The position numbers and the translations under genes were made by a program. Below are positions 3,074 through 12,934 of a stretch of DNA of 28,627 bases, piece by piece. Numbering within the stretch: the stretch's first letter is position 1; each line of letters opens with the position of its first letter. The stretch is taken from positions 1 to 28,627 of IMG/VR virus record IMGVR_UViG_3300025840_005106; one strand, 5' to 3'. The notes under the pieces are model-generated. The model ran no database searches. It had not been told where the DNA came from and saw only the letters and a list, made by a program, of their open reading frames with translations. This DNA is from a virus.

Positions 3074-3799
3074 ATGGGTAACTACAGAGACATATCAAAT
3101 TTAATTAATAAACACAAAGGTGAAATTGGTTTTGTAGCAGCACTGGGACCATCATTAAAATCTCATTTAGAGTATATAAAAAGTAAAAAAGCTATCACAA
3201 TTTCAACAAATGATTTTGATTTAATGACTGATATTGAACCAAATTATTGGATGATGGCTAATTCGTCACCAAACTCAATACCAAGAATGATTCAAAGAAT
3301 TAATAATTTAAATTCTATTGATATTATTTATGCAGATTCAGTTGACCCAACACCCAGAAATCATGTTGAGGGTATTATGAATAGAGATTTTTATGGGTAT
3401 GACCAAAGACACTTTGATGGTAAAGAATGTGGTTACTGTCCTCAAGGATGTAGAAATTTAATTTCTGATAGATTAACAATTCAGGAACATTTACAATCAT
3501 ATACAAAACATAATGAAAGGTATAGCCCCTCCGATACTGTTGCAACACATATGTTAGCAATGGCAATACTAATGGGATTCTCAACAATATACATTGCAGG
3601 ATGTGATTTAGATTACACTAAAGGATATGTTGATGGTGTTACAACTAATAGAGACACATTTAATCCTTATTTAAAAAATATCTTAAACGATTTTAGAATT
3701 ATTAATGATAGTGCTAATAACATAGGTACAAAAATTTATAATTTAAGTGAAATTAGTCATTTAAAAGATACGTTAACAACAATACCAAATATATTATGA
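3074..3799 (+). CDS. DUF115-like protein (putative glycan or glycosyltransferase-associated)
   Basis: The 241-residue protein has a GPSL segment at residues 25-28, a TNDFDL strand at 45-50, and near the C-terminus YSPSDTVATHML followed by GCDLDY at 176-181. This pattern resembles DUF115/MptE-like proteins, a fold found in motility accessory factors and in proteins of sialic acid and glycan clusters, and distantly recalls GT42 sialyltransferases. A Cys cluster at residues 119, 122 and 126 (C-x2-C-x3-C) could bind a metal. Its place next to a CMP-sugar synthetase gene, overlapping it by 4 bases (ATGA), would fit use of a CMP-ulosonic acid donor. That is inference; the biochemical role is unknown. 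Confidence 0.5.
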   Translation: MGNYRDISNLINKHKGEIGFVAALGPSLKSHLEYIKSKKAITISTNDFDLMTDIEPNYWMMANSSPNSIPRMIQRINNLNSIDIIYADSVDPTPRNHVEGIMNRDFYGYDQRHFDGKECGYCPQGCRNLISDRLTIQEHLQSYTKHNERYSPSDTVATHMLAMAILMGFSTIYIAGCDLDYTKGYVDGVTTNRDTFNPYLKNILNDFRIINDSANNIGTKIYNLSEISHLKDTLTTIPNIL

Positions 3800-5433
3800 A
3801 AATAGCTTGTATAATACCCGCCAGAGGTGGTAGTAAGGGAATACCAAATAAAAATATAATTGAATTTTGTGGTAAACCACTTATTTCACATACCATCTTA
3901 AATGCAAAAAACTCAAACTTGATAAGTGAAGTATTTGTTACTTCAGATAGTGATGAAATATTAAACATATCTTCTGATTATGGAGCAACACCAATTAAAA
4001 GACCTGAAGGGATATCGGGAGATTTTGCATCAAGTGAAGACGCAATTTTACACTCCATTGAAAATATCAGTCAAGATTTTGATACTATCGTATTTTTACA
4101 GGTAACATCACCTCTAAGAGAGACATCAGACATAGACAGGATGATAAATGACTATGTTAATAACAATTATGACTCAATGTTCTCATCATGTGAATTGGAA
4201 GATTTTTTAATGTGGGAAAAAAAAGATGATTTATTAAAAAGTTTAAATTACGATTTTTTAAATAGAAAAAGAAGACAGGACCACAATCCACAGATTGTTG
4301 AAAACGGTTCAATGTATATCTTCAACAAAAATGGTTTTATAGAAAATAAAAATAGATTGTTTGGTAAGATTGGTACGGTCACACAGGAAAGTTGGAAAAT
4401 GTTTGAAATTGATAATTACGAAGATTTAGATTTTTGTTCTTATCTTTATAAAAAACATTTTTTATCTACAGGTAGAAAAGTTTTTATGAATGGAGATTAC
4501 GTAAATGAAATGGACGCTAAAATTTCAATTTACGATTCAGCATTAATGTTTGGTGATATGGTTTTTGAAATGACAAGGTCATTTAATAAAAAACAATTTA
4601 AATTAGAAGAACATATTGATAGATTATTAAATGGTGTTAAAATCTTAAGAATTCCATTACAATATACAAAAGAAGAACTTATTGATATCTGTAACAAAGT
4701 AATTGAAATTAATGAACCTTTATTTTTACCTACTGACGAACACAGACTCGTTATTAATATATCAAGAGGACCATTAGGTTTATATTCACATTTGTTCGAT
4801 AAAGTTGGTGCGACAGTAATTGTTGCAGATTTCCCATTAAAGTGGACAGTTAGTGGAATGGGTAAATTATTTGATGAAGGTATAAACGCTGTTGTAACTA
4901 ATCAAAAAGCAATACCAAATCATTTATTAGACCCTAAAATTAAAAATAGAAGTAGACTCCACTATCAGATGGCTAACATTGAGGCTTCACAATTTAAAGG
5001 AGAAAACAATTGGGCTCTTTTATTAGATGAGGATGGTTTTATTGCCGAAGGTAGTGGTGATAATGTATTCTTTGTTAAAGATGGTGTTGTATATACACCT
5101 GAAGGTAGAAATATTTTAAGAGGAATCTCAAGAGATTATATTTTTGAGTTATGTGATGAATTAGGAATTCCTTGTGTTGAAAAGAACCTTACTTTATATG
5201 ATGCTTACACATCCGATGAGTCTTTTATGACTGCCACACCATTTTGTATCTTACCAGTGAAATCTGTAAATTATATAGATTTTGGTGATGGTAAAATGGG
5301 TCCAATAACTAAAAGATTATTAGACAAATGGAGTGATAATGTTGGTGTAGACATCGAACAACAGATTAAAGATTTTAACAATGAATTTATTATCGATTCA
5401 AAGGTTTCAACACCATACAATTTTAAAAAATGA
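3796..5433 (+). CDS. Fusion: CMP-sugar (acylneuraminate-type) cytidylyltransferase + class IV aminotransferase
   Basis: Residues 1 to about 222 are a CMP-sugar synthetase of the NeuA/KdsB fold. Marks are the nucleotide-binding ARGGSKGIPNKN at 9-20, LQVTSPLR at 101-108 and an ENGSMYIF strand. Residues from about 225 to 545 are a fold-type IV PLP enzyme (branched-chain/D-amino-acid aminotransferase type), with ALMFGD..FE near its start, a candidate PLP lysine at 383, EGSGDNVF at 418-425, GISRDYI and a TATPFCILPV segment. Both halves look complete and in frame, with no stop or shift between them. CMP activation of a ulosonic acid is expected from the first half. The second half may transaminate a sugar or an amino acid. 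Whether the polypeptide stays fused is unknown; an internal ATG at residue 231 could give a separate second product. Confidence 0.82.
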   Translation: MKIACIIPARGGSKGIPNKNIIEFCGKPLISHTILNAKNSNLISEVFVTSDSDEILNISSDYGATPIKRPEGISGDFASSEDAILHSIENISQDFDTIVFLQVTSPLRETSDIDRMINDYVNNNYDSMFSSCELEDFLMWEKKDDLLKSLNYDFLNRKRRQDHNPQIVENGSMYIFNKNGFIENKNRLFGKIGTVTQESWKMFEIDNYEDLDFCSYLYKKHFLSTGRKVFMNGDYVNEMDAKISIYDSALMFGDMVFEMTRSFNKKQFKLEEHIDRLLNGVKILRIPLQYTKEELIDICNKVIEINEPLFLPTDEHRLVINISRGPLGLYSHLFDKVGATVIVADFPLKWTVSGMGKLFDEGINAVVTNQKAIPNHLLDPKIKNRSRLHYQMANIEASQFKGENNWALLLDEDGFIAEGSGDNVFFVKDGVVYTPEGRNILRGISRDYIFELCDELGIPCVEKNLTLYDAYTSDESFMTATPFCILPVKSVNYIDFGDGKMGPITKRLLDKWSDNVGVDIEQQIKDFNNEFIIDSKVSTPYNFKK

Positions 5434-6206
5434 AAATAGGTGTTTTACAAGGTCGTCTCTCTGAGCCGATAGATGGTCAAATACAGGAATTTCCAATTCA
5501 TTATTGGAGAGAGGAATTATTTGATTTAATAACAATGGGATTAGATGGGATTGAATGGATTATAACCGAAAAAAATTATTTAAACAATCCTTTCTTTTTA
5601 TATGACTTAAGCTCATCTAATATATTATCAGTTTGTGTTGATAATATAATATCTAAGAATATAGTAGATTTTGACTATCTGTTGGATAATTTAAAACCTA
5701 CTTTAGATAGAATGGGAACACAAAAAGTTAAAAACATTGTCATCCCACTATTAGAAGATAGTTCAATTATAGAACCTGAAATAAGAAATAAATTTAAACA
5801 AAATATAAAGAAATTCATAACTGACTACCCTAACATTAACTTTTGTTTTGAGTTTGAGTGTGATGTCGAGACAATTTCAGAATTATTTGAATTAGGTGAT
5901 AATGTGTATGTTACATACGATACCGGTAATGTGACTTCTTTTTATGGTGAAGAGGTAAACCATGAAAAAAATATATTTTATTTAAAAAATAGAATATTAA
6001 ATGTCCATATAAAAGATAGAACTTTTGATTCTGTTACAGTACCATATGGTAGTGGAGACACTGATTTTAACACAATATTTAAATCCCTTAATAAAATTAA
6101 TTATGACGGTAACTTTATATTACAATTATGTAGAGAAATATCAGGAAATGAATATGAATATATTAATAAACACTTTAATTTGATTAAAAAAAACATTACA
6201 TTTTAA
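5430..6206 (+). CDS. Xylose isomerase-like TIM barrel protein
   Basis: This 258-residue protein fits the sugar phosphate isomerase/epimerase (AP endonuclease 2-like) superfamily. It opens with a KIGVLQGRL strand and has GLDGIEW in the second barrel strand, CFEFE around the middle, TYDTGNV, and NVHIKDR followed by PYGSGDTDF near the end. The Glu, Asp, His and Asp residues in these strands are where the metal ligands of the family usually lie. The gene overlaps the fusion gene by 4 bases (ATGA) and precedes an SDR gene. It probably isomerises, epimerises or dehydrates a precursor of the CMP-sugar. The substrate cannot be read from sequence. Confidence 0.72.
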   Translation: MKIGVLQGRLSEPIDGQIQEFPIHYWREELFDLITMGLDGIEWIITEKNYLNNPFFLYDLSSSNILSVCVDNIISKNIVDFDYLLDNLKPTLDRMGTQKVKNIVIPLLEDSSIIEPEIRNKFKQNIKKFITDYPNINFCFEFECDVETISELFELGDNVYVTYDTGNVTSFYGEEVNHEKNIFYLKNRILNVHIKDRTFDSVTVPYGSGDTDFNTIFKSLNKINYDGNFILQLCREISGNEYEYINKHFNLIKKNITF

Positions 6207-6207
6207 T

Positions 6208-7026
6208 ATGGTAAATTATTTTGATTTAACGGATAAAGTTGCGTTGGTTACAGGAGCCGGTGGGTTACTTGGACCTAAACATGCTGAAGCTTTATTAGAA
6301 TTTGGTGCATCTGTAATATTAACCGATGTAGATTTAAATTCACTTATAAAAAAGTTTAATTATTTAAGTGAAAAGTTTGGTAAGGAAAAAGTTTTTTACC
6401 AATACATGGATGTTGTCGATAAAAAATCAATAAATGATGTAATATCTAAATTTCCAAAAATTGATATTTTAATTAATAACGCAGCAAAAGACCCAAAGGT
6501 TACAAAAGATGATAAAAGTCTTACACCCGATAGTAGGTTTGAAGAAATGACTTTTGACTATTTTTCTGAAGGTATTGATGCAATAATTAACGGCACATTC
6601 TTAGTATCACAATGCATATCAAATAAAATGTTAAAGACAGGTGGTGGAGTTATTTTAAATATATCTTCAGATTTGGGTGTTATAGCACCTGACCAAAGAA
6701 TTTATGAAGACCCGACCAAACCTAAAAACTTACAAAACGTAAAACCAATAACATATTCAGCAGCAAAATGGGCAGTTATTGGTATGACAAAATATTTGGC
6801 AACATATTTTGCCAAAGATAACATAAGAGTAAACTGTCTAAGTCCAACTGGTGTATATAATGACCACCCAGATGAATTTGTACAAAAATTATCTAACATT
6901 ATTCCGATGGGGAGAATGGCACACATTGACGAATATAAGGGGGCTATTGTCTTTATGTGTTCTGATGCAAGTAGCTATATGACAGGTACTAATTTAATAA
7001 TTGATGGAGGAAAAACAGTATGGTAG
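6208..7026 (+). CDS. Short-chain dehydrogenase/reductase (SDR)
   Basis: The 272-residue protein is a classical SDR. The cofactor motif TGAGGLLG is at residues 15-22, NNAA at 90-93, the ISSD strand carries the catalytic Ser near 153-154, and the YSAAK motif gives catalytic Tyr183 and Lys187. The C-terminal CSDASSYMTGTNLIIDGG is typical. An Asp (TDVD, residue 40) at the end of the second strand suggests preference for NAD(H), by family rule. It lies between the TIM-barrel gene and the SIS isomerase gene and overlaps the latter by 7 bases. It likely oxidises or reduces a sugar intermediate of the same pathway. The fold call is certain, the substrate unknown. Confidence 0.85.
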   Translation: MVNYFDLTDKVALVTGAGGLLGPKHAEALLEFGASVILTDVDLNSLIKKFNYLSEKFGKEKVFYQYMDVVDKKSINDVISKFPKIDILINNAAKDPKVTKDDKSLTPDSRFEEMTFDYFSEGIDAIINGTFLVSQCISNKMLKTGGGVILNISSDLGVIAPDQRIYEDPTKPKNLQNVKPITYSAAKWAVIGMTKYLATYFAKDNIRVNCLSPTGVYNDHPDEFVQKLSNIIPMGRMAHIDEYKGAIVFMCSDASSYMTGTNLIIDGGKTVW

Positions 7027-7592
7027 AAACAATTAAAAACAACATATCTGAGTCAATCAGATTAAAAACATCATTGTTGAATGATGAGAATATTATCAAT
7101 AAAATATATGAAATTAGTAATATTATTATTGAAACATATAAAAATGGAAATAAGATTTATTTCTGTGGTAATGGTGGTAGTTTTGCAGACTCACAACATT
7201 TATCGGCAGAACTAAATGGTAGATTTTATTTTGATAGAGAACCATTAGAAGTAGTATTATTAGGTTCTAATTTATCATATCTTACTGCAGTGGCTAATGA
7301 CTATTCTTATGAAGAAATATTTTCAAGAGAGTTTAAATCATCATTTAAAAAAGGTGATGTGGTAATATGTTTATCTACATCAGGAAAATCTAAAAATATA
7401 ATAAAATTAATTGAATCTAATCCTGACGCGTTTGTTGTTTCATTTCTTGGTAGAGATGGAGGATTAATGAAAGACATGTCTGATATATCGATAGTAATCC
7501 CATCAGAAGATACGGCAAGAATTCAAGAATGTCACATGTTAATTGGACACACAGTATTAGAAATTGTAGAAAATAAAATGTTTAAAAAATAA
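7020..7592 (+). CDS. gmhA: SIS-domain isomerase, phosphoheptose isomerase-like
   Basis: The protein of 190 residues matches GmhA (sedoheptulose-7-phosphate isomerase) in length and motifs: FCGNGGSFADSQH at residues 48-60, AELNGRF with Glu64 in the position of the catalytic Glu, VANDY, the phosphate-binding STSGKS, and TARIQECH near the end, with His172 in the position of the catalytic His. GmhA makes D-glycero-D-manno-heptose 7-phosphate. SIS enzymes of related fold (KdsD) make arabinose 5-phosphate for Kdo. The motifs favour GmhA over KdsD. It sits directly before a PEP-condensing synthase gene, so its product may feed that enzyme. The symbol is by family resemblance only. Confidence 0.82.
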   Translation: MVETIKNNISESIRLKTSLLNDENIINKIYEISNIIIETYKNGNKIYFCGNGGSFADSQHLSAELNGRFYFDREPLEVVLLGSNLSYLTAVANDYSYEEIFSREFKSSFKKGDVVICLSTSGKSKNIIKLIESNPDAFVVSFLGRDGGLMKDMSDISIVIPSEDTARIQECHMLIGHTVLEIVENKMFKK

Positions 7593-7597
7593 AAATT

Positions 7598-8431
7598 ATG
7601 AGCACTTACATTATTTCAGAAATCGGAATCAATCATAATGGTGATATGAATATAGCCAAAGAATTGATAAAAAAATCTAAAGAATCTGGTTGTAACGCAG
7701 TTAAATTTCAAAAAAGAGATATTGACTCTGTCTATACACCTGAAGAATTATCATCACACAGAGAATCCCCCTGGGGCACTACATTTAGGGAACAAAAAGA
7801 AGGTATTGAATTTTCAATTGAACAATATAAAGAAATTGAAAATTATTGTAATGAAATTGGTATTGATTTTATTGTTTCTTGTTGGGATGAAGTTAGTTTA
7901 GAGTTAGTTGAATCTAATCTAAACGTAAAATACCATAAAATTGCATCGGCACTATTAACCGATAAATCATTTTTAGAAAAATTGAATGCTACAGGTAAAC
8001 CTATAATTGTTTCAACTGGTATGTCAAATGAAGAGGAAATTGAAGCAGCATTAAATATTTTAAATAATGTTGAATATGTTTTGGCTTGTACAAGTACTTA
8101 CCCAACAAAAGAAGAAGAAATGAATTTAAGATATATCACAACACTATCTCAAAAATATCCACAATACAAAATTGGATTTTCAAATCACCATAGTGGTTTA
8201 GTTCCTATGTTTGGTGCAGTTTCTCTTGGAGCAGAATGTATTGAATTTCACATTACTTTAGATAGAACTATGTATGGCTCTGACCAATCTGCCTCTATTG
8301 AGAATGTTGAGGAATTAGTTGAAGGTATAAGAAAAATGGAAAATGTTTTAGGTGATGGCATTAAGGTAGTTTATGATAGTGAATTACCTATCATCAAAAA
8401 ACTAAGAAAGACAAATGATATATTGCTTTGA
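7598..8431 (+). CDS. neuB: NeuB-type ulosonic acid synthase, short form
   Basis: NeuB-family enzymes condense phosphoenolpyruvate with an amino or neutral sugar to give a nonulosonic acid such as sialic acid. The motifs are in order: EIGINHNG at residues 8-15, VKFQKR at 35-40, KIAS at 114-117, STGMS at 139-143, GFSNHHSG at 193-200 and EFHITLDRTMYGSDQSAS at 216-233, which together cover the whole TIM barrel. At 277 residues it ends where the barrel ends and lacks the C-terminal SAF (antifreeze-like) domain of usual NeuB proteins of about 340-350 residues. That domain normally lends a substrate-binding Arg to the partner subunit, so the substrate may differ. The next gene starts inside its last codons. 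Confidence 0.83.
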   Translation: MSTYIISEIGINHNGDMNIAKELIKKSKESGCNAVKFQKRDIDSVYTPEELSSHRESPWGTTFREQKEGIEFSIEQYKEIENYCNEIGIDFIVSCWDEVSLELVESNLNVKYHKIASALLTDKSFLEKLNATGKPIIVSTGMSNEEEIEAALNILNNVEYVLACTSTYPTKEEEMNLRYITTLSQKYPQYKIGFSNHHSGLVPMFGAVSLGAECIEFHITLDRTMYGSDQSASIENVEELVEGIRKMENVLGDGIKVVYDSELPIIKKLRKTNDILL

Positions 8432-9056
8432 TTTAGACGGTACTTTATGCACACTAACAAAAAGTGAGTATGATAAAGCAGAACCAATAATTGAACGTAT
8501 TAACATTGTAAATAAACTATATGACGATGGTAATACTATTATTATTGATACAGCTAGAGGTGCTCAAACAAAAATAGATTGGTATGATGTAACAAAAAAT
8601 CAATTAGACTCGTGGGGTGTAAAATATCATGAACTAAGAGTTGGTAAAAAATTACACTACGATAAATTAATTGATGATAAGGCAAATTCGGATAAATCAT
8701 TTTTTGACGATTTAACTGCCGGTGAAATAATAGATGATAAAATAAGTAACTTTGTAGACTCAATACTTAAAGACAATAAATTCCCAAATTATGATAATAT
8801 CCACACAGATACATTTTCCGAATTAATTGATAAATTATGTATTGTACACATCCGATATTGGTACTTAGAGGACGAAATGGCCATGTGTAAAGATGATGAA
8901 AGATTAGTGGAATTACGAAAAAAATCAGAATACCTTTTTAAAGAAAAAAGACCCATGTTAGTATTGGCGATTGATAAATACATTGACGCTTTAGTTAAAA
9001 ACAAAATTAATCACACACCACAAAATATAAAAAAATATTTAGGATGGGAGAATTAA
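8415..9056 (+). CDS. HAD-family phosphatase-like protein with C-terminal helical domain
   Basis: The first 100 or so residues form a small HAD domain: DLDGT at 6-10 with nucleophile Asp6 and Asp8, TARG at 46-49, a QLDSWGV segment, Lys78/Lys79, and IDDKA at 86-90 for the final acidic pair. This subtype is common in capsule and LPS clusters. Residues of about 130-213 are helical, with WYLEDEMA and a D..L..LRKK...LFKEKRP pattern reminiscent of DUF4254; that part is a weak match from memory. It overlaps the NeuB-like gene by 17 bases. By analogy with KdsC it could dephosphorylate the synthase product or its precursor. Alternatively it acts on a heptose phosphate, given the GmhA-type neighbour. 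Confidence 0.68.
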   Translation: MIYCFDLDGTLCTLTKSEYDKAEPIIERINIVNKLYDDGNTIIIDTARGAQTKIDWYDVTKNQLDSWGVKYHELRVGKKLHYDKLIDDKANSDKSFFDDLTAGEIIDDKISNFVDSILKDNKFPNYDNIHTDTFSELIDKLCIVHIRYWYLEDEMAMCKDDERLVELRKKSEYLFKEKRPMLVLAIDKYIDALVKNKINHTPQNIKKYLGWEN

Positions 9057-9929: not shown

Positions 9930-10838
9930 ATGAAAATTTTAGTAACCGGAGGTTCAGGAATGGTTGGACAATCTTTAAAAAAATTATTACCCGATGCCAT
10001 ATACATTTCATCTAAAGATTACGATTTAACAAAAGAAGAAGACGTAATCAAAATGTTTAAAACATATAAACCAAAAAAGGTCGTACACTTAGCCGCTAGA
10101 GTTGGTGGTATTATAGATAATATTGAAAGACCATATCAATATTTTGTTGATAATGTTCAAATGAATACATTGATGGTCGAACATTCTTTTAAAAATAATG
10201 TAGAACAATTTATTGGAATTTTATCTACTTGTATCTATCCCGATAAAGTTGATACATATCCTATGTCTGAAGAAGATTTACATTTAGGTCCACCAACGAT
10301 TACAAATTTTTCATATGGATACGCAAAAAGATGTTTGGCGGTACAAATAGATGCATTAAACAAACAATACGGTACAAAATATCAATATTTAACTCCATGT
10401 AATTTGTATGGTGAAAATGACAAAGTAGGTCACAACAGTCATTTTGTTTCTGCACTTTTAGAAAAAATACACAACGCAGTTGTTAATGAAAAAAATGAAA
10501 TAAATTTATTTGGGACCGGTAACCCATTAAGACAATTCATGCATTCAGATGATTTGGCTTGGGTAATTAATGAATGTTTAACAAAAGAAATCTACGAAAG
10601 TTTCAATGTTGCTACCGAAGAAAATTTATCAATAAGACAAATGGCTGAGATATCACTAAACGAATTAAATTTAAATCACATTAAACTAAATTTTGACATT
10701 ACTAAGCCTGATGGTCAATATAGGAAAGATGTATCAATTCAAAAATTAAAAGATTTACTTATAAATTTTAAACCATTACCTTTTAATAAAGGTATAAAAA
10801 AAGTTTATGATAAAATTAGTCAGCGATACAATCGATAA
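9930..10838 (+). CDS. fcl: GDP-L-fucose synthase or GDP-L-colitose synthase-like epimerase/reductase
   Basis: This SDR converts a GDP-4-keto-6-deoxy sugar by epimerisation and reduction. The start at the second in-frame ATG (9930) puts the first Rossmann strand at the N-terminus, as in Fcl; an ATG at 9906 would add eight extra residues. Motifs are GGSGMVG at 7-13, AARVGG at 55-60, STCIYP at 99-104 with Cys101 in the place of the epimerase Cys, Tyr129 and Lys133 of the YxxxK motif, and His171 in the place of the second epimerase residue. Length (302) fits. ColC of colitose synthesis belongs to the same family and also keeps these residues, so fucose and colitose routes cannot be told apart here. 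Its last 32 bases overlap the ColD-like gene. Confidence 0.82.
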   Translation: MKILVTGGSGMVGQSLKKLLPDAIYISSKDYDLTKEEDVIKMFKTYKPKKVVHLAARVGGIIDNIERPYQYFVDNVQMNTLMVEHSFKNNVEQFIGILSTCIYPDKVDTYPMSEEDLHLGPPTITNFSYGYAKRCLAVQIDALNKQYGTKYQYLTPCNLYGENDKVGHNSHFVSALLEKIHNAVVNEKNEINLFGTGNPLRQFMHSDDLAWVINECLTKEIYESFNVATEENLSIRQMAEISLNELNLNHIKLNFDITKPDGQYRKDVSIQKLKDLLINFKPLPFNKGIKKVYDKISQRYNR

Positions 10839-11961
10839 AAATGATATAAATCATTTAATAGAATGGTTATCTCAAGATGAGATTCCTAGATTAACAAAAG
10901 GTGAGTTAACTATTGAGCTTGAAGAAAAATGGGCAAAGAAAATGGGTACAAAGTATTCCGTTTTTGTAAACTCGGGTTCATCGTCAATATTATTAACATT
11001 AGCAGCCCTTTTACATTCAAATAAATTAAAAAATAATAAAATAATTGTACCAGGTTTGAGTTGGGCTACCGATGTAAGTAGTCCAATGTTATTAGGGTAT
11101 GAGACTTTTTTATGTGATTGTAATTTAGATGATTTGTCTTGTGACTTAAATCATTTAGAAGAGTTATTTAAAAAAGAAAATCCATCAGTTTTAATATTGG
11201 TATCACCTTTGGGATTGGTACCAGAAATGGACAAGGTACTAAAACTTTGTAATGACTATGATGTAATATTATTAGAAGATGTTTGTGAAAGTATGGGTTC
11301 TAAATTTAATGGTAAATATTTAGGTTCATTTGGTTTGGCGTCTTTTTATTCCATGTATTTTGGACATCACTTATCAACAATAGAGGGAGGGTTTATTAAT
11401 ACAAATGATGAAGAATTTTATCACTTATTATTAATGATGAGAAGTCATGGTTGGGACAGGGATTTACCAAGAAAAACACAAGAAGAATTAAGAAACAAAT
11501 ATAAATCTTCAGATTTTGATTCTCTATATAATTTTTACGTACCAGGTATGAACTTACGTTCTACAGATTTACAAGCATTTATTGGATTAAGGGCTATAGA
11601 AAAATTAGACAACTATAGTAAAATAAGAAATAAAAACTTTTTATTTTACAAGTCAAATTTAAAATCTAATCAATTACAATTAGATACAAGAAATACTGAT
11701 TTTATATCAAGTTTTGCAATACCTATTCTTAACAAAAATAGAAATAAGATTGTTGAAGAGCTTATTAATAATAACATTGAAGTTAGACCATTAATTGCAG
11801 GTAATATGGCAAATAAACCAATGTGGTATTTAAAATACGGTAGAGTTGAATTAGAAAATTGTCAATTATTAGATGATTATGGTTTTTACGTACCAAATCA
11901 TCAAGACCTAACGGAAACCGATATACAAAAAATAACAGATATAATTAACAAACATTCTTAA
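10807..11961 (+). CDS. colD: DegT-fold PLP enzyme with His in place of Lys: GDP-4-keto-6-deoxymannose 3-dehydratase (ColD)-like
   Basis: The 384-residue protein has the DegT/DnrJ/EryC1/StrS fold: VNSGSS around 55-60 for the phosphate site, LLEDVCES for the Asp that binds the pyridine nitrogen, and a SFYS...EGG segment. Sugar aminotransferases have a PLP lysine six residues before the EGG; here residues 187-188 are His-His (FGHHLSTIEGG). A His at this place is known in ColD, which removes the C3 hydroxyl of GDP-4-keto-6-deoxy-D-mannose, and in the CDP-hexulose dehydrase E1. The four Cys that hold the iron-sulfur cluster of E1 are not evident, favouring ColD. GMD, which makes the ColD substrate, is encoded one base downstream. 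The chemistry is inferred from this residue and the context. Confidence 0.83.
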   Translation: MIKLVSDTIDKNDINHLIEWLSQDEIPRLTKGELTIELEEKWAKKMGTKYSVFVNSGSSSILLTLAALLHSNKLKNNKIIVPGLSWATDVSSPMLLGYETFLCDCNLDDLSCDLNHLEELFKKENPSVLILVSPLGLVPEMDKVLKLCNDYDVILLEDVCESMGSKFNGKYLGSFGLASFYSMYFGHHLSTIEGGFINTNDEEFYHLLLMMRSHGWDRDLPRKTQEELRNKYKSSDFDSLYNFYVPGMNLRSTDLQAFIGLRAIEKLDNYSKIRNKNFLFYKSNLKSNQLQLDTRNTDFISSFAIPILNKNRNKIVEELINNNIEVRPLIAGNMANKPMWYLKYGRVELENCQLLDDYGFYVPNHQDLTETDIQKITDIINKHS

Positions 11962-11962
11962 T

Positions 11963-12934
11963 ATGAAAAAAGCGTTAATTACAGGAATTAACGGACAAGA
12001 TGGTTCATACTTGGCCGAGTTCTTGTTAGATAAAGGATATGAAGTACATGGTACATTAAAAAGAAATTCTGTAGCAGAAAATCAAACTGCAAGATTAGAC
12101 GGAATATTTGACAAAATTATTTTGCATTATGCAGATATGACAGATTTATCATCACTTATATCTGTTTTACAAAAAGTAATGCCCGATGAAATATATAATT
12201 TAGCTGCTCAATCACATGTAAGAATCTCATTTGACCAGCCAATCTATACCTCAAACGTAACAGGATTAGGGTCGTTAAATTTGTTAGAGGCAGTAAGAAT
12301 GATTAAACCGGATAGTAAAGTATATCAGGCATCCTCATCTGAAATGTTTGGTAACTCAATAGATGAGGACGGTTTCCAAAGAGAAACAACTCCAATGAAC
12401 CCAGTGTCCCCATACGGATGTGCAAAAGTATTTAGTTATAACATTTGTAGAAATTACAGAAATTCATATAACTTATTTGTTTCTAATGGAATTCTTTTTA
12501 ATCACGAATCTCCACGAAGAGGTACAAACTTTGTAACAAACAAAGTTGCTAAAGAAGCCGTTAAAATAAAATTAGGACTATCAAATGTGTTAAAATTAGG
12601 AAATTTAGACGCAACTAGAGATTGGGGTCATGCTAAGGATTATGTAGAAGCAATGTGGATGATACTTCAGTTAGATAGTCCAAATGATTATGTATGTGCA
12701 ACAGGTATTTCACATACAGTAAGAGATTTATGTGAATATACTTTTAATAAATTAGGTTTAGATTATCGGGATTATGTAAAACAAGATGAAAAATTCTTAA
12801 GACCTGAAGAACTTAATGATTTAAAGGGAGATTCGACAAAATTAAGAACACAAACCGGATGGTCGCCAAAATACACTTTTGAGACTATGATGGATGAAAT
12901 GATTGATTATTGGTTAAATTTTTATAAATTATAA
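11963..12934 (+). CDS. gmd: GDP-mannose 4,6-dehydratase
   Basis: This extended SDR makes GDP-4-keto-6-deoxy-D-mannose from GDP-D-mannose, the branch point for GDP-fucose, colitose, rhamnose and perosamine. Length is 323 residues. Motifs are GINGQDG at 8-14, AAQSHV at 81-86, ASSSEMFG at 123-130, Tyr151 and Lys155 (YGCAK), and NHESPRRG at 180-187, which is highly characteristic of the family. It starts one base after the ColD-like gene (TAA-T-ATG) and ends the glycan island. Some GMD relatives act on GDP-heptose, which the GmhA-type gene upstream makes worth considering, but the simplest substrate is GDP-mannose drawn from the host pool, since no mannose-activating gene is visible here. Confidence 0.93.
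   Translation: MKKALITGINGQDGSYLAEFLLDKGYEVHGTLKRNSVAENQTARLDGIFDKIILHYADMTDLSSLISVLQKVMPDEIYNLAAQSHVRISFDQPIYTSNVTGLGSLNLLEAVRMIKPDSKVYQASSSEMFGNSIDEDGFQRETTPMNPVSPYGCAKVFSYNICRNYRNSYNLFVSNGILFNHESPRRGTNFVTNKVAKEAVKIKLGLSNVLKLGNLDATRDWGHAKDYVEAMWMILQLDSPNDYVCATGISHTVRDLCEYTFNKLGLDYRDYVKQDEKFLRPEELNDLKGDSTKLRTQTGWSPKYTFETMMDEMIDYWLNFYKL

Follow-up and report, generated by a model that had tools for sequence, protein, structure and literature searches.

The fused gene and its surroundings

The window analysed here, the whole 28,627-nt stretch at positions 1 to 28,627 of IMG/VR virus record IMGVR_UViG_3300025840_005106, belongs to a T4-like phage (T4-type major head protein, PhoH and a baseplate-hub-like protein) and carries a block of surface-sugar genes spanning about 1 to 13 kb. 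Within this block, an open reading frame on the plus strand (3796..5433) starts with ATG and continues for 545 aa to its stop codon with no internal stop. Two Pfam domains lie in this single frame, CTP_transf_3 at residues 4-228 (1.5e-25) and Aminotran_4 at residues 256-491 (9.6e-47); they cover positions 1-216 of 217 and 2-223 of 223 of their profiles, respectively, so both are complete. The first-pass annotation had described an in-frame fusion of a CMP-sugar synthetase (NeuA-like) to a class IV aminotransferase, with key motifs in both halves and a join at about residue 225, and this description is borne out: ARGGSKG begins at residue 9 and EGSGDN at residue 418, the PLP lysine is K383, and the join falls at about residues 222-226 (FLSTG, around nt 4459..4473, plus strand), identically in one further viral contig (L002). 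Judged from its sequence, the ORF is a genuine gene for one protein of two domains. A structure predicted by AlphaFold using aminotransferase rows only was confident for the C-terminal half, with pLDDT below 50 for most of residues 1-224, where the NeuA half had no alignment depth.

The NeuA-like half (3796..4461, plus strand; residues 1-222; PF02348) carries ARGGSKGIPNKN at residues 9-20. It aligns with PpNeuA (PDB 9t4z) at residues 29-240, and end to end with both PpNeuA and the CMP-NeuAc synthetases 1qwj and 6ifd. The complete domain and the nucleotide-binding motif ARGGSKGIPxKN are common to this half and the CMP-nonulosonic acid synthetases (NeuA, PseF, LegF), and a NeuB-family synthase is encoded in the neighbourhood (7598-8431). 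The fused ORF differs from those synthetases in its aminotransferase partner and in its NCBIfam scores, as the only curated models matched by the NeuA half are PseF and KdsB, all below cut-off. Because PseF TIGR03584 reached only 119.3 bits against a cut-off of 205.7, no specific sugar can be assigned. Other NeuA fusions exist, namely NeuA-esterase in E. coli and GalNAc-transferase/NeuA in Campylobacter, with partners that differ from an aminotransferase.

The fused ORF sits among closely packed plus-strand genes. Upstream, an MptE-like/WaaZ-like gene (3074..3799) overlaps it by ATGA and is a possible partner, being adjacent in L007 as well. Downstream, a xylose-isomerase-like TIM barrel (5430..6206) overlaps it in the same way; in bacteria, too, the aminotransferase gene is usually followed by one for a TIM-barrel protein. 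There follow an SDR oxidoreductase (6208..7026; PRK09186/PtmA-like, below cut-offs), a GmhA-like SIS-domain sugar-phosphate isomerase (7020..7592), the NeuB-family ulosonic acid synthase (7598..8431; PF03102, 3.3e-65) and an EcbF/BcbF-like HAD phosphatase fused to a DUF4254-like domain (8415..9056). The latter is a second lineage-specific fusion. The window also encodes a DegT-type protein at 10807-11961, a different gene from the fused ORF. Outside the sugar block, a 276-aa protein at 25907-26737 matches the catalytic domain only of class II (D, K, N) tRNA synthetases.

Authenticity and origin of the fusion

Over an aligned 10,853 bases, the L002 contig (IMGVR_UViG_3300034374_010865) differs from the window by 40 SNPs without a single gap, and its junction DNA is identical. 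An assembly or sequencing artefact, in which an indel error erased the stop and start of a phage that truly has two genes, would fit the two-gene arrangement of all other relatives and the recovery of the fusion in only one further contig. We nevertheless consider it highly improbable: the gap-free junction recurs in a different contig at 40 SNPs' distance, the difference from the closest two-gene relative is 16 nt rather than one homopolymer base, and the ribosome-binding site, start and stop are all missing at the window's join. Thirteen SNPs between the two contigs fall within the fused ORF, and all are synonymous (13/13), against about 19% expected under random substitution, or 33% for transitions. 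This purely synonymous variation indicates that the fused protein sequence is maintained. Twelve of the 13 lie in the aminotransferase half and one in the NeuA half, ten of them within a tract of about 160 bases. Differences between the contigs cluster at 4737-4893, in the aminotransferase half, and at 12154-12604, in a GDP-mannose dehydratase gene, and are all synonymous there; such clustering in two genes is as expected from recombination tracts, and the cluster at 4737-4893 may be one recombined tract.

The nearest two-gene relatives, L003 and L004, encode the two enzymes as separate ORFs of 228 and 327 aa, the stop codon of neuA lying within the aminotransferase start region (..GGAGAATGCCATGAATAAGTCC..); the NeuA half is 59% identical to the separate ORF of L003. 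At the join, L003 has a Shine-Dalgarno-like GGAG, two ATGs and the TAA stop of neuA, whereas the window is 16 nt shorter and lacks all of these. A simple 16-nt deletion between adjacent genes is thus a possible origin of the fusion. Three other relatives (L007, L012 and L013) carry a methyltransferase gene of about 202 aa between the neuA and aminotransferase genes, and in the aminotransferase tree the window stands beside L007 (SH-aLRT 94), both being grouped with L003/L004 (99). Because the tree places the window's aminotransferase closer to L007, loss of the methyltransferase gene is an alternative origin.

Only the window and L002 are fused among the 126 aminotransferase loci compared, some of which overlap. 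Elsewhere, wherever neuA and the aminotransferase gene adjoin one another in the phage and cellular genomes compared, they are separate genes, usually read in different frames, and many pairs overlap by ATGA (L014, L016, L017, L161, L167 and others), the usual sign of translational coupling. A scan of viral contigs with a degenerate junction pattern recovered L002's contig and no third fused one, the fusion was absent from 385 genomes of the class of G001 (a Pelagibacteraceae genome), and class IV or NeuA matches among INPHARED phages and plasmids were only 25-36% identical, none covering 80% of the fused protein. The plasmid relatives examined (Skermanella, Ruegeria) had unrelated gene contexts. 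Across the 126 loci, the viral junction scan and the 385 genomes, no diverse relatives with the same fusion were found that would make up a conserved NeuA-aminotransferase family. Likewise, we found no paper describing such a fusion in the open-access literature, which is weak evidence of absence. The first-pass annotation did not recognise the pairing as a standard enzyme, rightly, and it took separate proteins in all relatives to speak against the fusion. The partners are indeed separate everywhere except in the near-identical L002, and it follows that the fusion is a local derived event and not a conserved architecture, without thereby being false. On these comparisons, the fusion is recent and local to one phage lineage.

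A further reading accepts the fused frame and adds an internal start at M231 that also, or mainly, makes a separate aminotransferase. Codon 231 is an ATG preceded by a weak purine stretch (AGAAAAG, 5 nt), and free homologues begin only about 4-5 residues earlier. We regard this as improbable, since M231 matches none of the start codons of the relatives, a protein begun there would lose the conserved RKVF beginning of the first strand, including R227, which is invariant in the clade, and the GGAG and both ATGs of L003 are missing from the window.

The fusion could also be neutral gene compaction without functional gain, the halves acting as if separate, a view that we hold to be somewhat better than an even bet and that is compatible with the explanation preferred below. 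Compaction, which had been offered as one meaning of the fusion at the outset, fits the event: the fusion occurs in one lineage only, the same cassette holds the second fusion at 8415-9056 (HAD and DUF4254-like, separate in L003, L015 and L076), and the two genes of relatives already overlap or abut. The purely synonymous variation of the ORF argues that the protein is maintained, yet it is silent on any benefit of the fusion as such. Most simply, the main effect of the fusion is to fix at 1:1 the ratio of two enzymes whose translation was coupled beforehand. An intermediate could conceivably be channelled from one active site to the other, but this is not indicated, because CMP activation does not have to follow directly on amination.

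A distinct class IV aminotransferase clade

The aminotransferase half (4471..5430, plus strand; residues 226-545; PF01063) finds its best solved match in PDB 5mqz, an A. fulgidus-type branched-chain aminotransferase (BCAT; 5.6e-52), and alignment with solved class IV aminotransferases identifies K383 as the PLP lysine. The complete Aminotran_4 domain, the catalytic lysine and the PLP-binding motifs make it a PLP fold type IV enzyme, sharing with IlvE and D-amino-acid transaminases (PF01063) the fold family, the catalytic lysine and the EG.GDN and LRGISR PLP motifs. PF01041 (DegT/DnrJ/EryC1, fold type I), the family of PseC and LegC, is absent from the fused ORF, whose only aminotransferase domain is PF01063.

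Active-site residues were matched to those of E. coli IlvE and 5mqz with hhalign and phmmer. Within the carboxylate pair of BCATs, Arg97 is kept as R317, whereas Tyr95 is replaced by an invariant glutamate (E315). The clade to which the aminotransferase half belongs also has M259 in place of Gly38 and (A/G)TPF in place of the GTAA turn (ATPF in the window), and the tyrosine found at Lys+4 in fold type IV enzymes is R387, invariant in the 105 clade rows. All four departures are invariant or nearly so across these rows. In other fold type IV enzymes, the Lys+4 tyrosine contacts PLP O3' (PMC5131300, PMC8401098). The half scores below every curated equivalog cut-off, including those for branched-chain transaminase (IlvE; 199.3 vs 245.55 bits), whose Tyr95/Arg97 pair and GTAA turn are altered here, and for D-amino-acid transaminase (135.8 vs 277.45 bits). 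The active-site differences from IlvE and D-amino-acid transaminases and the sub-cut-off scores suggest that this clade should have its own substrate. The classical substrates of class IV aminotransferases are alpha-keto acids, (R)-amines or aminodeoxychorismate, not sugars (PMC5131300), which weakens the case for sugar amination by the aminotransferase half.

Gene neighbourhoods and a proposed pathway

Relatives in cellular genomes were sought by the aminotransferase peptides GDM[VI]FEM and SI[YF]DSALM alone, so that the surroundings played no part in their selection. The search returned 230 relatives, of which 80 were kept (56-67% identical). On the 51 bacterial and archaeal contigs longer than 14 kb, NeuB was present in 49, NeuA or an SpsF-like protein in 46, an SDR in 40 and the TIM-barrel protein in 37, and all four partners occurred together in 32; unbiased clustering of the clade's neighbours recovered the same set. 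The typical order is NeuB - HAD/SIS - NeuA - aminotransferase - TIM - SDR - SDR. Clade rows with known taxonomy span 20 phyla, two of them archaeal. Some of the genomes, G003 and G005 for example, encode, in addition to the clade member, further class IV transaminases that are about 30% identical to it; the clade member is therefore not the housekeeping enzyme (IlvE), and its presence in only 2 of the 385 genomes of the class of G001 marks it as an accessory trait. We noticed that the aminotransferase is followed by the TIM-barrel gene more regularly than it is preceded by NeuA, so that gene order ties its function to the pathway more strongly than to NeuA itself. The earlier suggestion that the fused protein links amination and activation is supported at the level of a pathway only, the two genes being neighbours in a cluster conserved across phyla.

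Two phage loci with the same cassette, L066 (8665-10388) and L064, lack the class IV aminotransferase and have, between NeuA and TIM, a class III aminotransferase and a glyoxalase/VOC protein; this substitution suggests that the conserved feature of the slot is amination. Another locus, L089, has both modules. Bacterial clusters add a KDN-9-phosphatase/KdsC-like HAD protein, sometimes fused to SIS (KDN-9-phosphatase NF058599 being below cut-off). One protein of L148 (5027-6091) joins a KdsC/KDN-9-phosphatase-like HAD to a GmhA-like SIS domain, and a protein of L130 (6151-7215) has the same length and SIS match. Since the bacterial HAD partner matches KDN-9-phosphatase and KdsC models, the comparison suggests that NeuB here would make a phosphorylated ulosonate.

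Known nonulosonic acid systems resemble this cluster in part. The Bacteroides KDN pathway joins mannose-6-P and PEP, after which a HAD 9-phosphatase and a CMP-KDN synthetase act; NeuB, NeuA and a KDN-9-phosphatase-like HAD are thus common to it and the bacterial clade clusters, although neither an aminotransferase nor TIM or SDR proteins are needed to make KDN. PseC and LegC are DegT-type aminotransferases of fold type I. They too stand in NeuB/NeuA clusters (PMC13317340, PMC3438082), as does the clade, which differs in being of fold type IV. The Shewanella flagellin modification operon sfmABCDE brings together NeuB, a TPP enzyme and an SDR (PMC3765264), and a TPP enzyme also lies beside the clade in L148 and L126; unlike the clade cluster, the sfm operon as described contains no aminotransferase (0 occurrences; PMC3765264). 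The TPP enzyme of these two Clostridium-type clusters (L148, 6144-7964; L126, 6204-7985) resembles acetolactate synthase, lies directly before the aminotransferase and recalls Shewanella sfmB.

We consider it probable that the fused protein arose when adjacent genes of a sialic-acid-like cassette lost their stop and start, and that its halves aminate a sugar and activate the product with CMP. The loss of the intervening stop and start of two nonulosonic acid cassette genes would have occurred in one phage lineage. The SDR would make a keto group on a sugar intermediate, which the TIM and SIS proteins would isomerise, and the aminotransferase half would aminate the keto intermediate with an amino acid, probably glutamate, as donor, upstream of the NeuB product or at its level. 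NeuB would condense the aldose or its phosphate with phosphoenolpyruvate, the NeuA half would load the product with CMP, and the CMP-ulosonate would pass to glycosyltransferases for glycan transfer during phage infection.

Alternatively, the aminotransferase might leave the sugar itself unaminated and make an amino or keto acid for attachment to it as an N-acyl substituent. Glutamyl or alanyl substituents occur on some nonulosonic acids, and the closest characterised relatives of the enzyme are amino-acid transaminases. The acetolactate synthase-like TPP enzyme beside the aminotransferase in L148 and L126 is a maker of 2-keto acids, and in L007, L012 and L013 a methyltransferase separates NeuA from the aminotransferase. 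However, neighbour clustering revealed no ligase or amino-acyltransferase as a constant neighbour, and the replacement of the tyrosine that holds the alpha-carboxylate in BCATs by the invariant E315, and of GTAA by xTPF, argues against ordinary alpha-amino-acid products (PMC5131300, PMC8401098). We therefore find the N-acyl route rather unlikely and retain sugar amination as the preferred reading.

From the conserved gene order and the divergent active site, we infer that the clade is devoted to amination within a nonulosonic-acid-type pathway that is as yet uncharacterised. A bolder proposal, to which we give slightly less than an even chance, makes the clade, recognisable by its SIYDSALMFGDMVFEMTRSFNKKQFK, DEHR, KNRSR and TPF motifs, the signature enzyme of a so far undescribed pathway of this type in at least 20 bacterial and archaeal phyla and in phages, in which fold type IV amination would replace the fold type I step of PseC/LegC; the fusion would then be a natural pointer to a pathway shared with CMP activation. 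No paper linking a fold type IV aminotransferase to nonulosonic acid synthesis was found in the open-access literature, and the nonulosonic acid aminotransferases described are of a different fold from the clade.

Taken by itself, the fusion is of modest interest, newly joining in a single lineage two enzymes whose genes lie side by side elsewhere. The more interesting and lasting result, and one amenable to experiment, is the clade with its cluster: a distinct class IV group whose gene order links it to the making of ulosonic acids in bacteria, archaea and phages. If confirmed, this link would permit the prediction of a new amino sugar on numerous microbes of the environment (Pelagibacter, Prochlorococcus, Nitrosopumilus, Omnitrophota), and the pathway would explain what some phages install on their host or on themselves. 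Other viral contigs (L177-L189) encode class IV aminotransferases at 33-38% identity, mostly adjoining NeuB, and the association with NeuB may be broader than the clade studied here.
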